Shown here in pieces: positions 27,233 to 29,996 of a stretch of 64,000 bases of DNA. Numbering within the stretch: position 1 is the first letter of the stretch; the number at the start of each line of letters is the position of its first letter. The DNA is taken from the NCBI RefSeq assembly GCF_039536205.1, contig NZ_BAAAYL010000001.1:5146001-5210000 (forward strand). Direction: 5' to 3'. The notes under the pieces were generated by a model that was not told the DNA's origin, made no database searches, and was given only the letters and a program-made list of their open reading frames with translations. This DNA is from Streptomyces sannanensis (GTDB taxonomy: Bacteria; Actinomycetota; Actinomycetes; Streptomycetales; Streptomycetaceae). A program made the position numbers and the translations under genes.

Positions 27233-27760
27233 ATGGATTCCGCAGAACAGGGGCCGTCGCCCCAGGACCCGGCGGAGCAGGCACGGGCGATCTGCCTGCG
27301 CCTGCTCACCGGGACCCCGCGGACCCGTAAACAGCTCGCTGACGCCCTGCGCAAGCGGGACATCCCGGACGATGTCTCGGCCGAGGTGCTGTCCCGCTTC
27401 GAGGAAGTCGGTCTGATCGACGACGCGGCGTTCGCCGACGCCTGGGTGGAGTCCCGGCACCACGGGCGGGGCCTGGCCCGTCGGGCCCTCGCCCGTGAAC
27501 TGCGCACCAAGGGCGTCGACTCCGTGCTGATCGACGAGGCGGTCGGGCAGCTGGACTCCGAGCAGGAGGAGGAGACCGCCCGCGAGCTGGTCGCCCGGAA
27601 GCTGCGCTCCACGCGTGGGCTCGACCGCGACCGGCGCTTGCGCCGCCTCGCGGGCATGCTGGCCCGCAAGGGTTACCCCGAGGGCATGGCCCTGCGCGTG
27701 GTCAGGCGCGCGCTGGAGGAGGAGGGCGAGGACATGGAGGACCTGGACTTCGACGTGTGA
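27233..27760 (+). CDS. recX: RecX, regulator of RecA
   Basis: 175 aa from ATG 27233. Three tandem three-helix RecX repeats: RAICLRLLTGTPRTRKQLAD, FEEVGLIDDAAFADAWVESR, GLARRALARELRTKGV, DRDRRLRRLAGMLARKGY. RecX binds RecA filaments and inhibits their activity; in Streptomyces it prevents toxic RecA overproduction. GGAGGGG at 27222 precedes the ATG with about 6 nt spacing; an in-frame GTG at 27188 would add 15 residues but has no Shine-Dalgarno. Likely cotranscribed with recA. The 3' end overlaps by 88 bp the convergent rhodanese gene. Confidence 0.93.
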   Translation: MDSAEQGPSPQDPAEQARAICLRLLTGTPRTRKQLADALRKRDIPDDVSAEVLSRFEEVGLIDDAAFADAWVESRHHGRGLARRALARELRTKGVDSVLIDEAVGQLDSEQEEETARELVARKLRSTRGLDRDRRLRRLAGMLARKGYPEGMALRVVRRALEEEGEDMEDLDFDV

Positions 27761-28050
27761 CGGGGGCCGGTGACCGGCAGGCCCGCAGCACGCCAGGCCT
27801 GGAAGCCGCTGATGAGGTCCGTCGCGCGATGCAGGCCCAGTTGGTGGAGGGACGCCGCCGCGAGGCTGGAGGCGTAACCCTCGTTGCAGATCACCACGAT
27901 CCTCGGATCGTGCCCCGTGGCTTCGTCCGCACGATGGCTGCCCTGTGGATCGGGCCGCCACTCCAGTTCATTGCGCTCCACCACCAGCGCCCCTGGGATC
28001 AGCCCGTCCCGCTCGCGCAAGGCGGCGTAACGGATGTCCACCAAGAGCAC
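27673..28050 (-). CDS. Rhodanese-like sulfurtransferase
   Basis: 125 aa from the GTG at 28050. Rhodanese fold elements: LLVDIRYAALRERDGLIPGA at the N-terminus, active-site loop VVICNEGYASSLAA with the persulfide-carrying Cys, and LISGFQAWRAAGLPV at the end of the domain. GGAGGG lies 5 nt before the GTG. An alternative in-frame GTG at 28164 would add 38 codons, but these have clearly lower third-position G+C than the rest and overlap the leader peptide, so they are more likely untranslated. The Ser/Thr-rich C-terminal tail is antisense to the recX 3' end (88-bp overlap). A Cys-rich leader peptide and two hairpins upstream suggest control by cysteine or sulfur supply. Confidence 0.8.
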   Translation of the reverse strand: MLLVDIRYAALRERDGLIPGALVVERNELEWRPDPQGSHRADEATGHDPRIVVICNEGYASSLAAASLHQLGLHRATDLISGFQAWRAAGLPVTGPRHTSKSRSSMSSPSSSSARLTTRRAMPSG

Positions 28051-28054
28051 CCCG

Positions 28055-28067
28055 CCCTCCGCGAGGG
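28055..28067 (-). promoter_or_regulatory. Hairpin that would mask the rhodanese Shine-Dalgarno
   Basis: Read on the minus strand, CCCTC-GCG-GAGGG forms a 5-bp stem with a 3-nt loop whose 3' arm is the GGAGGG ribosome-binding site of the rhodanese GTG at 28050. Pairing would hide it. Confidence 0.4.
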
Positions 28068-28113
28068 GCGTACGGAGAATGACACGGAAGGTCCGTCCTG
28101 GGAGTTCGCATGG

Positions 28114-28131
28114 ACGCGCCGATGGGCGCGT
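28114..28131 (-). promoter_or_regulatory. Perfect hairpin between leader peptide and rhodanese gene
   Basis: acgcgcc-gatg-ggcgcgt is a perfect 7-bp stem with a 4-nt loop starting 14 nt after the leader-peptide stop codon. No U-run follows, so if it is regulatory it is more likely part of an RNA rearrangement than a simple intrinsic terminator. Confidence 0.45.
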
Positions 28132-28145
28132 GGGGGAGGGGCGAG

Positions 28146-28232
28146 TCAGCAGGACGGGCGACACACGCAGCACGCATAGCGGATCAGGTCCATGCGGACC
28201 CTCCGCCACAGGCGCACATCGGTGCCGGTCAT
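28146..28232 (-). CDS. Cysteine-rich leader peptide upstream of the rhodanese gene
   Basis: 28 aa ending RYACCVCRPSC, with four Cys codons among the last eight, preceded by the VRLWRRVRMDL pattern seen in 'putative leader peptides' that Streptomyces place before sulfur-metabolism genes. The ATG at 28232 lies only 7 nt after a TCTACT -10 element, so the mRNA should start at or next to this ATG (leaderless). By analogy with the Cys-codon upstream ORFs of mycobacteria, ribosome pausing on the Cys run when charged tRNA-Cys is scarce would alter downstream RNA folding and rhodanese expression. The peptide itself probably has no function. A shorter form could start at Met14 (28193). Confidence 0.7.
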   Translation of the reverse strand: MTGTDVRLWRRVRMDLIRYACCVCRPSC

Positions 28233-28239
28233 GGTCCGG

Positions 28240-28268
28240 AGTAGACCATGCGCGCCCACGGCGGTCAA
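28240..28268 (-). promoter_or_regulatory. Promoter of the leader peptide-rhodanese unit
   Basis: On the minus strand TTGACC (28263-28268) and TCTACT (28240-28245) are separated by exactly 17 bp. The -35 overlaps the stop codon of the upstream monooxygenase gene. Transcription should begin about 7 nt beyond the -10, that is at the leader-peptide ATG. Confidence 0.7.
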
Positions 28269-29920
28269 TTGATGTCCGCTGTACGGCCGGTGGGCACCGG
28301 GTCGGCGGGTTCGTCCGGGCCGGCAGGACTGTCCGGGTCGGCGGAGCCGACGGAGTCAGGCGCACCCCCGCGTACCGCGTCCGCCGCCGCGTACAGTTCG
28401 GCGGGCCGCACTCCGCCGAAAGCGGCGACGAGACAGCCGTCGGGCCTGACCAGCAGCACGGTGTGCGCGGCGGCTTCGGGATAGTTCTCGGCGACCAGCA
28501 GCTCGGCCCGTACCGGCAGAGCGGTCACCGCGGCGGCGAGCCGCGGCATGACGCCGGCCGTCATCCAGTGCCGCCGTTCCCATACGCCCGTGCCCGGGGC
28601 GACCAGCACCACCAGCAGCCGGCCTTGTCCGAGCCGGTCGTGCAGCCGCACGGTCGCACCGTCCGGCGCCGTGACCCGTACATCCTCGACCCGCGCACCC
28701 ACCTCCGTCCCGACGAGCGTCTGCGAACCGGCGCGCGGAGGTGCGAGGGGGGTGTGCGGGTAGGCGGGGGGCGCGCCCAACGGCCCGAGCCCCAGATGCC
28801 CGTCCGTCAGCAGGGTGTCGTGGCCGCGCGCCGCCCCCGGGATGTAGGTGCGCAGCCCTCCGCCGCCACGCAGCACCGGCATCGCCTGGTCGGCGGCGCG
28901 CAGCCGGGCGGCGACGGCGGTGCGCCGCTCCGACTGGTAGCTGTCGAGCAGGGTGTCCGACGCTCCGTGGTGCCAGGCCAGGGCCAGTTTCCAGGCGAGG
29001 TTCTCCGCGTCCCGCAGCCCTTCGTCGAGCCCCTGCGTGCCGAGGGCGCCGAGCAGATGTGCGGCGTCCCCGGCGAGGAAGGCCCGCCCGACCCGCCAGC
29101 GGCGGGCCAGCCGGTGGTGCAGGGTGTGGACGCCGGTGTCGAGCAGTTCGTACGGAGGAGCCTCACCGCACAGGCCGGTCAGGGTGTTCCGTACCCGCGC
29201 GACCAGCGAGTCGGGGGTGACGAGCTCGCCGCTGGGCGGCAGCAGCCAGTCGAACCGCCAGGCGCTGTCCGGCAGCGGTCGGGCCGTCACCTCGGCCCCG
29301 ACGCCCGGCCAGTTCGGCAGCCGGTACAACAATGCCTCGCCGGGCCAGGGAAGTTCGACGCGCAGCGCCGCCACCGCGTGCCGTTCCACCGCCGTACGCC
29401 CCGGGAAGCGGACGCCGAGCAGTTTGCGCACGGTGGACCGGGCTCCGTCGCAGCCGACCAGATGACTGCCGCGCCACCAGGTGGGCTCGGTGCCGCGCGT
29501 GTGGACGGTGACACCGTCGTCGTCCTGTTCGATCGTGTCGACGCGGCTGTCGGTGACGACATCGACGAGCGGCTGGGCCATGGCGGCCTCGTGCAGCCCC
29601 CGGGTCAGCGCGTGCTGCGGGAGGTGCAGCGGCGATTCCCCGCCGTCGCCGCCCTCCCCGAAGTCGAACTGCCGCAGCAGTTGCTTGCGCCGGAAGGTGC
29701 GCCAGGCGACCCAGCGGGTCCCTTCGTCATGGATCGTGGTGCAGCCCAGCCGCTCGGCGAACGCGACGGTGTCCGGCCGCAGTATGGCGGTGCGGGCCGG
29801 ACGTGGCTCATCCTTGCCGGGGCCCTCGTCGAGGACGACAGTGGGCACGCCCTGTGCGGCAAGCGCGAGGGCCAGCGAGAATCCGACCGGCCCCGCGCCG
29901 ACAATGATCACCGGGTCCAC
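28265..29920 (-). CDS. FAD-dependent aromatic-type monooxygenase
   Basis: 551 aa. Rossmann FAD motif VIIVGAGPVGFSLALALA at the N-terminus, a conserved DG (VGCDGARSTVRKLLG, about 160-175), and the second FAD motif GRAFLAGDAAHLLGALGTQGLDEGLRDAENLAWKL (about 280-315). This is the para-hydroxybenzoate hydroxylase/RdmE-like class with a C-terminal thioredoxin-like region (about 400-530), resembling PheA/PgaE-type hydroxylases of polyketide tailoring and aromatic catabolism. No such pathway surrounds it, so substrate is unknown. GTG 29920 follows GAGGAG at good spacing. A perfect CTGTG-N6-CACAG palindrome just upstream suggests a dedicated repressor encoded elsewhere. Confidence 0.88.
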   Translation of the reverse strand: MDPVIIVGAGPVGFSLALALAAQGVPTVVLDEGPGKDEPRPARTAILRPDTVAFAERLGCTTIHDEGTRWVAWRTFRRKQLLRQFDFGEGGDGGESPLHLPQHALTRGLHEAAMAQPLVDVVTDSRVDTIEQDDDGVTVHTRGTEPTWWRGSHLVGCDGARSTVRKLLGVRFPGRTAVERHAVAALRVELPWPGEALLYRLPNWPGVGAEVTARPLPDSAWRFDWLLPPSGELVTPDSLVARVRNTLTGLCGEAPPYELLDTGVHTLHHRLARRWRVGRAFLAGDAAHLLGALGTQGLDEGLRDAENLAWKLALAWHHGASDTLLDSYQSERRTAVAARLRAADQAMPVLRGGGGLRTYIPGAARGHDTLLTDGHLGLGPLGAPPAYPHTPLAPPRAGSQTLVGTEVGARVEDVRVTAPDGATVRLHDRLGQGRLLVVLVAPGTGVWERRHWMTAGVMPRLAAAVTALPVRAELLVAENYPEAAAHTVLLVRPDGCLVAAFGGVRPAELYAAADAVRGGAPDSVGSADPDSPAGPDEPADPVPTGRTADIN

Positions 29921-29932
29921 GGCGCGACTCCT

Positions 29933-29948
29933 CTGTGCACGATCACAG
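29933..29948 (-). promoter_or_regulatory. Candidate operator upstream of the monooxygenase
   Basis: ctgtgcacgatcacag contains the inverted repeat CTGTG-N6-CACAG, placed between the likely -10 and the GTG start at 29920. A candidate promoter reads TTGACG (29977-29982) with TTGCAT or TGCATA 17-18 bp away (29953-29959). The regulator is not in the window. Confidence 0.5.
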
Positions 29949-29996
29949 AACGTATGCAACCCACTGCCGGTGCTTGCGTCAAGTGACCGCGGGCAG

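Follow-up and report, generated by a model that had tools for sequence, protein, structure and literature searches.

A conserved cysteine leader ahead of Streptomyces cysteine dioxygenase genes and its apparently orphaned copy in Streptomyces sannanensis

We examined a short cysteine-codon leader within 64,000 nucleotides of the Streptomyces sannanensis genome (hereafter the window, whose positions are used throughout) and consider it likely that what survives at this locus is the 5′ end of an operon conserved in Streptomyces, in which a cysteine leader forms a switch ahead of genes for a cysteine dioxygenase (CDO) and a rhodanese. In the window, the CDO gene and the start of the rhodanese gene appear to have been deleted, such that the leader is orphaned and now faces a leftover. 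The leader, its promoter spacing, the conserved pairing, the operon order and the deletion can all be read from the DNA of the window and its relatives. The leader and its promoter comprise the following features:

28265..29959, minus strand: FAD-dependent monooxygenase, the upstream neighbour (open reading frame list; relatives judged by eye)
28263..28268, minus strand: −35 element TTGACC (read from the sequence, conserved in relatives)
28240..28245, minus strand: −10-like element TCTACT, 17 nt from the −35 element, with the ATG 7 nt further
28146..28232, minus strand: 28-codon cysteine leader ORF, ATG at 28232, stop at 28148-28146 (open reading frame list and relatives)
28161..28163, minus strand: Cys24 codon TGT, the proposed sensing codon (conservation across distinct loci)

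An earlier interpretation made from this DNA by itself (the sequence-only reading) had described a TTGACC/TCTACT promoter with 17-bp spacing, a −35 element overlapping the stop codon of the upstream monooxygenase and a 28-codon ORF ending in cysteine, all of which are there. TTGACC overlaps the TGA (28267-28265) of the FAD monooxygenase on the minus strand, and the ORF at 28232-28146 encodes the 28-residue peptide MTGTDVRLWRRVRMDLIRYACCVCRPSC, which ends in RYACCVCRPSC and belongs to a leader conserved in relatives. A FAD monooxygenase also lies upstream of the leader in relatives, as judged by eye from translations.

Of the 80 named loci that a rhodanese scan yielded, 79 are labelled Streptomyces and the remaining one "Actinobacteria bacterium". 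In 77 of the 80, the leader is found upstream of the rhodanese, separated from it by a gap; in the other three, the contigs stop 605-626 bp upstream. Among 138 loci, four yielded no leader, namely L015, L053 and L076, which have too little upstream sequence, and L092. Merging identical rows leaves 130 distinct loci for the codon, folding and helix P2 counts given here and 128 for those on the promoter and on leader changes. The relatives' leader typically reads MTDTxVRLWRRVHMDLVRYAGCVCRPSC. The Streptomyces alignment that the sequence-only reading had suggested bears out the conservation of the Cys codons, with Cys24 encoded by TGT in 130/130 distinct loci and with Cys at residues 22 and 28 in 129/130 and 122/130, respectively. 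These codons sit near the leader stop, as expected of a cysteine attenuator. The proposal of a cysteine-type leader ORF, of the kind known before actinobacterial sulfur genes, likewise held up. Against NF042934, whose cut-off is 27 bits, an intact leader from Streptomyces reaches 37.1 bits.

The promoter geometry is also conserved, with the pattern TTGA-N17..19-TNTACT-N6..9-RTG present in 111 of the 128 distinct loci. The −10-like element of relatives is mostly TGTACT or TCTACT, and the leader ORF opens with GTG in 85 of the 128 loci and with ATG in 38. A generic sigma-70 scan returned no site at the window promoter, because it demands A as the second −10 base, which is C here. The conserved spacing predicts that the mRNA 5′ end falls on the leader start codon, and the mRNA is thus probably leaderless; for comparison, the accessible part of PMC8079986 gives 17% of S. 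lividans transcripts as leaderless.

When the next gene is compared, the window departs from its relatives. Both leader and rhodanese could be placed in 132 loci (127 distinct), with L097 and L147 dropped for yielding no rhodanese frame. In all 132, 696-1054 nt separate the leader stop from the rhodanese codons for LLVDIR (median 760, duplicates not merged), and this distance led us to reject a leader-controlled rhodanese as the ancestral unit; in the window, the same distance is 98 nt. The gap gene of locus L003 falls in the type I cysteine dioxygenase family (PF05995 CDO_I, E 1.9e-50), and a CDO-like ORF, called by HDH and HHxHEV-like motifs and a length of >130 aa, is present between leader and rhodanese in 123/132 loci. 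In the remaining 9 of the 132 gaps, which are of comparable length, the CDO motifs were not found. The match of the CDO to cysteine dioxygenases of solved structure (best E 1.3e-11) does not itself settle cysteine versus other thiols as the substrate. The remains of this arrangement in the window are as follows:

27999..28085, minus strand: remnant of the CDO start, GTG at 28085, running out of frame into the rhodanese, 28 aa, MSFSVRPSRRAGCSWW... (open reading frame list, alignment)
28061..28074, minus strand: deletion junction, approximate interval (alignment to relatives)
28055..28067, minus strand: CCCTC-GCG-GAGGG hairpin spanning the junction, regarded as accidental (alignment)
27673..28050, minus strand: N-terminally truncated rhodanese ORF, GTG at 28050, with the Cys of ICNEGYASS kept (PF00581, alignment)

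Homology to the CDO start extends over the ribosome site and the initial codons, and homology to the rhodanese starts by ~28062, which places the junction within about 28074-28061. By alignment, ~0.6-0.7 kb appear to be missing, consisting of nearly all of the CDO and some 30-40 rhodanese codons. A deletion in the lineage of this genome would thus have created an out-of-frame fusion between the opening codons of the CDO and about codon 30-35 of the rhodanese. The window stretch is matched by 359 of 392 genomes of the genus, and among the matches listed, only its own genome matches in one piece. The own genome contains two other CDO_I genes, while no copy of the locus-type CDO was found in it at E 1e-15. 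The window leader itself carries H13R and G21C, both at positions at least 98% conserved across the 128 distinct loci; none of the 127 other loci has two such changes and 7 have one. Two unique substitutions of this kind are expected after a real loss of function. Against NF042934, the window leader scores 16.9 bits, under the cut-off of 27.

The confinement of the deletion to its own genome, among those examined, would also fit an assembly error with the operon intact in the living strain. We regard this as very unlikely, as the contig is 7.4 Mb long, this CDO is absent elsewhere in the genome, and the two substitutions at highly conserved leader positions are unique among 128 loci. A different question is whether the leader, after the deletion, has come to control the truncated rhodanese through either the GGAGGG hairpin or the nearby CDO ribosome site. 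In its favour, an intact promoter and leader lie upstream, a GTG follows 4 nt after GGAGGG, and the mean dN/dS of the rhodanese core is low (rank 114/125 from the top), probably reflecting mostly the time before the deletion. We nevertheless find such control quite unlikely, because the hairpin crosses the scar, the protein is short of ~30-40 N-terminal residues, and the leader has its two changes at conserved positions. The sequence-only reading had taken GGAGGG for the masked Shine-Dalgarno sequence of the rhodanese; the hairpin exists in the DNA, but none of the other loci examined has the junction that it spans. Both GGAGGG and the GTG at 28050 lie opposite rhodanese codons in the alignment (e.g., ...EGALLVDIR in relatives), the GTG facing an Ala codon in most relatives, which makes the masking hairpin a by-product of the junction. 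Control of a rhodanese through this site is therefore not supported: the next gene in relatives is the CDO, and GGAGGG is former rhodanese coding sequence. Translation of the window rhodanese would need a GTG and a Shine-Dalgarno-like sequence that both come from former coding DNA.

Ahead of LLVDIR, the rhodaneses of relatives have ~30 conserved residues (GIDELLERV...) together with some variable positions, and the window rhodanese is the sole member of its cluster (1 member, 1 contig). Two of its residues, L32P and G80S, are unlike those of all 124 others. Overall, the rhodanese core gives no signal of decay: its mean dN/dS has the low rank given above, and 2 changes at sites with at least 95% conservation lie within the range of 0-3 seen in the others. 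The ORF overruns the stop of relatives and reads antisense through the end of recX (27673-27760).

With the CDO restored as the next gene, the end of the leader and the sequence following it contain complementary segments that would mask the CDO ribosome site:

28150..28157, minus strand: CCGTCCTG, codons 26-28 (Pro-Ser-Cys), the anti-Shine-Dalgarno arm P1-5′ (complementarity, folding)
28141..28144, minus strand: TCGC, 5′ arm of helix P2 (P2 count, folding)
28114..28131, minus strand: apical 7-bp hairpin ACGCGCC-CATC-GGCGCGT, 14 nt past the leader stop (sequence, folding)
28106..28109, minus strand: GCGA, 3′ arm of helix P2 (P2 count, folding)
28093..28100, minus strand: CAGGACGG, ribosome-binding site of the lost CDO, the P1-3′ arm (complementarity, folding, alignment)

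The leader-end codons CCG TCC TG(C) are complementary to CAGGACGG ahead of the CDO start, and this P1 pairing is exact (8/8) in 110/135 loci and at least 6/8 in all (window included, duplicates unmerged), counts that favour P1 since the CDO site was located by its likeness to CAGGACGG. Helix P2, usually TTCGC or TCGC past the leader stop with GCGA(A) before the ribosome site, reaches at least 4 bp in 117/130 distinct loci versus 23% of shuffles. The apex is variable, with stems of at least 6 bp in 88% versus 59% of shuffles, moderately above expectation. In the window, the 94-nt segment from the leader end folds as the P1/P2 structure at −32.9 kcal/mol (z −2.37); z is below −2.3 in 3/4 segments folded and 0.01 in the fourth. 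The perfect 7-bp hairpin that the sequence-only reading placed 14 nt past the stop is present at 28131-28114 and, in the folding model, is the apex of the structure joining leader and CDO site. For relatives and for the CDO remnant in the window alike, the predicted fold thus draws part of the leader into a structure masking the CDO ribosome site.

Covariation contributes little to this picture. In an alignment of 98 sequences (those of the 130 distinct segments up to 128 nt long), 97.3% of P1 cells are paired and no pair is changed on both sides. With four sister genera included (60 chosen sequences), 85.9% of cells pair, a figure that includes an added ninth, outer P1 pair failing in 52/60; here a single pair shows changes of both partners, in 3 sequences from one genus. 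Because P1 covariation is nearly absent, the helix rests on its conservation and on P2. Synonymous recoding is a weak control, as 17.7% of recodings keep the 8 nt of P1, meaning that the leader amino acids alone make P1 likely. As for the covarying stems that the sequence-only reading had proposed to look for, the pairing of P1 and P2 is conserved, P1 shows essentially no covariation, and the GGAGGG hairpin is confined to the window among the loci examined. Third codon positions of the leader are widely conserved, at P1 and elsewhere.

DNA-level conservation extends over much of the leader. Relatives carry the mini-palindromes GGTCCATATGGACC and CCGCTATGCGG, the second of which is disrupted by G21C in the window; these are possible further RNA elements. 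In a fifth sister genus, g147 (L244-L256), most loci have the leader core RRVHLDLLRYAGCVCTAAR before the CDO. The ribosome site in this genus does not pair with the leader end; in the majority of loci it resembles GGGTGG, and it is often accompanied by a local hairpin. At Rfam gathering scores, nothing is found in the window except an nrdJ RNA element (RF03034, 59933-60015) and a tRNA (653-725).

From these features we infer the transcription start, the stalling and the direction of control of the proposed switch. In the intact operon, the mRNA would start at the leader start codon. With plentiful cysteine, the ribosome would complete the leader and depart, allowing CCGTCCTG to pair with CAGGACGG and close the CDO site, while with scarce Cys-tRNA, it would wait at Cys24, cover CCGTCCTG and free the site, such that the CDO would be translated. 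If the ribosome footprint is assumed to reach 16 nt from the first P-site base, a ribosome waiting at Cys24 would cover all of CCGTCCTG and one at Cys22 just its edge. In a simple partition-function model, the CDO site has a median unpaired probability of 0.00 when free, 0.00 with a stall at Cys22, 0.20 at Cys24 and 0.21 at Cys28, making the opening at Cys24 predicted but partial. With a Cys24 ribosome, site opening is predicted in 6/7 sister-genus loci with P1, and clear opening in 1/12 loci of genus g147. The idea that stalling on scarce Cys-tRNA opens a masked ribosome site thus fails for the rhodanese, and survives as a prediction for the CDO site CAGGACGG. In the genome of the window, the switch would persist and serve a 28-codon out-of-frame remnant. 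That a site should open upon a lack of cysteine is odd for a cysteine-consuming enzyme.

The leader could also act mainly on the mRNA, with untranslated CDO message terminated by Rho or decaying, as in an attenuator of transcription or stability. We take SCO5772 of S. coelicolor to be the CDO of the window-type locus and SCO3035 to be the second CDO discussed below. The excerpts available of PMC4991794 report that oxidative stress raises SCO5772 8.00-fold and SCO3035 6.54-fold in the wild type, with SCO5772 in the same table as cysM, cysA and sulfite reductase, and this rise of the SCO5772 mRNA itself alongside other sulfur genes would suit an mRNA-level effect, as would the suggestion of Rho-dependent control of mycobacterial cys leaders in the part available of PMC1262725. 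We judge this reading unlikely, given that the conserved pairing involves the ribosome site and that no GC hairpin with a U run, and hence no intrinsic terminator, occurs in window 27600-28500 (an intrinsic-terminator attenuator was rejected for this reason). In addition, the SCO5772 rise depends on HbpS-SenS-SenR and need not stem from the leader, the 28 genes up in the wild type not being up in the HbpS-SenS-SenR mutant (PMC4991794, as excerpted). The available text of PMC3087709 annotates SCO5772 as a putative cysteine dioxygenase and has its S. venezuelae homologue in the glnR table, and protein regulators may explain the rise. The response of SCO5772 is accordingly no proof of leader control, and the HbpS dependence slightly lowers the odds both of the leader-CDO-rhodanese switch and of the wider CDO regulon considered next. 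The mRNA-level and translational modes could act together.

Cysteine leaders are not limited to this locus. In the own genome, translations read by eye place NF042934-type leaders before a sulfur-carrier/cysteine synthase pair (L115) and a sulfite reductase (L116) and an NF042934 match before a thiosulfate sulfurtransferase (L117), where a separate leader pattern was unmatched. The second CDO of this genome (L083) has its own leader, MPATAAPATTHTRGLRRAVQARCCYSSC, and similar leaders, many with CCC runs, are found in 29/30 loci, own included (the best 30 of 143 matching genus genomes). This poly-Cys leader of the AVQARCCCSSCHSC type is conserved (L083:900-1100, L257-L286) and unrelated in sequence to that of the window; in 7 loci, the search pattern for its pairing with the Shine-Dalgarno sequence gave no testable site. 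The frame of the second CDO contains a tandem repeat with units like CCCAAGCTCTCGGCTTCTCC (L083:1300-1470, own genome).

We also examined 33 divergent CDOs (32 from other families), which are 33 of 36 weaker CDO matches, with G755, G242 and G552 left out, and counted ORFs whatever their place relative to the CDO start. HxDL...C ORFs lie on the upstream side of 6/33, versus 1 antisense and 0.06% of shuffles, and ORFs with a Cys-rich tail on the upstream side of 9/33, versus 0 antisense and 1.6% of shuffles; one or the other type is near 12/33. In another family, L187 has two successive leader-like ORFs before its CDO (L187:680-848 and L187:575-593), with a CCGVMRCCCCA tail and of the YRRIHLDL..GSVC type, and L190 looks alike by eye. 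We entertain, at somewhat less than even odds, the view that CDO genes across Actinobacteria belong to a cysteine-leader regulon and are preceded by several unrelated Cys leaders. These are the LWRRVHMDL..GCVCRPSC type, the poly-Cys AVQARCCCSSCHSC type ahead of the second CDO in Streptomyces and, in other families, HxDL or poly-Cys types.

We class the leader of the window and its relatives as a probable cysteine-leader attenuator, a kind already known from Actinobacteria, upstream of cysteine/sulfur genes (the CDO and then the rhodanese in relatives, a rhodanese fragment only in the window); the unusual part is its attachment to a cysteine-consuming enzyme. Work by Canestrari et al. from 2020 (Mol Microbiol 114:93) reportedly has stalled ribosomes unmasking the next ribosome site in mycobacteria. 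As described in the accessible portions of PMC9031893 and PMC13236596, mycobacterial polycysteine leaderless sORFs attenuate the cysteine-related genes that follow according to cysteine supply. The leader studied here resembles these in being a short, probably leaderless ORF with Cys codons before cysteine-related genes, but it has 3-4 separated Cys codons rather than a run, its masking arm lies in its own last codons, and the next gene is a CDO in relatives, the window copy having lost its gene. The cys leaders of Seliverstov et al. 2005 likewise have Cys codons near the stop and precede actinobacterial cys/cbs operons; in the part available of that paper (PMC1262725), they belong to Mycobacterium, Propionibacterium and Bifidobacterium and are without conserved terminator hairpins, and no Streptomyces CDO was found there. 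Further candidate cysteine-responsive leaders appear in the accessible part of PMC4633059.

The NF042934 model (cis_reg_atten, "putative leader peptide") has the same HxDL...C pattern as the intact Streptomyces leader, and this NCBI model will already label many such peptides, but it names a peptide and neither an RNA mechanism nor a target, and the window copy is under its cut-off. Related NCBIfam models are NF042933 (Ms5788A) and NF042936 (Ms4527A). Within Streptomyces, several attenuators of S. lividans TK24 are leaderless leader peptides, as is probable here, whereas the eight attenuators in the accessible text of PMC8079986 are called Leu-, Trp-, Ala-, Ile-, Met- or Thr-dependent, with none called cysteine-dependent and none before a CDO. 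The S. lividans metL leader, listed as methionine-dependent and located before metNIQ, ends in GARCMCRRMCAF with three Cys codons (PMC8079986, part available), and metI and metN share the oxidative-stress table of SCO5772 in the excerpts of PMC4991794. Literature searches, which covered subscription journals thinly, showed no report of a leader before a CDO among the matches listed.

The comparison across Streptomyces that the sequence-only reading itself suggested corrected an attractive misreading, revealing the rhodanese arrangement as a deletion scar, and the orphaned window copy offers a natural example of a leader outliving its gene. The switch proposed for the intact operon is concrete and testable, has a putative sensing codon and two defined pairing arms, and belongs to a common genus. 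A question that follows is why cysteine-type leaders, elsewhere found before cysteine synthesis genes, also precede cysteine dioxygenases. If the CDO regulon is real and follows the mycobacterial mode of control, cysteine starvation would switch on an enzyme that destroys cysteine; either these CDOs would really scavenge sulfur from other thiols, or the leaders would work in the opposite sense.
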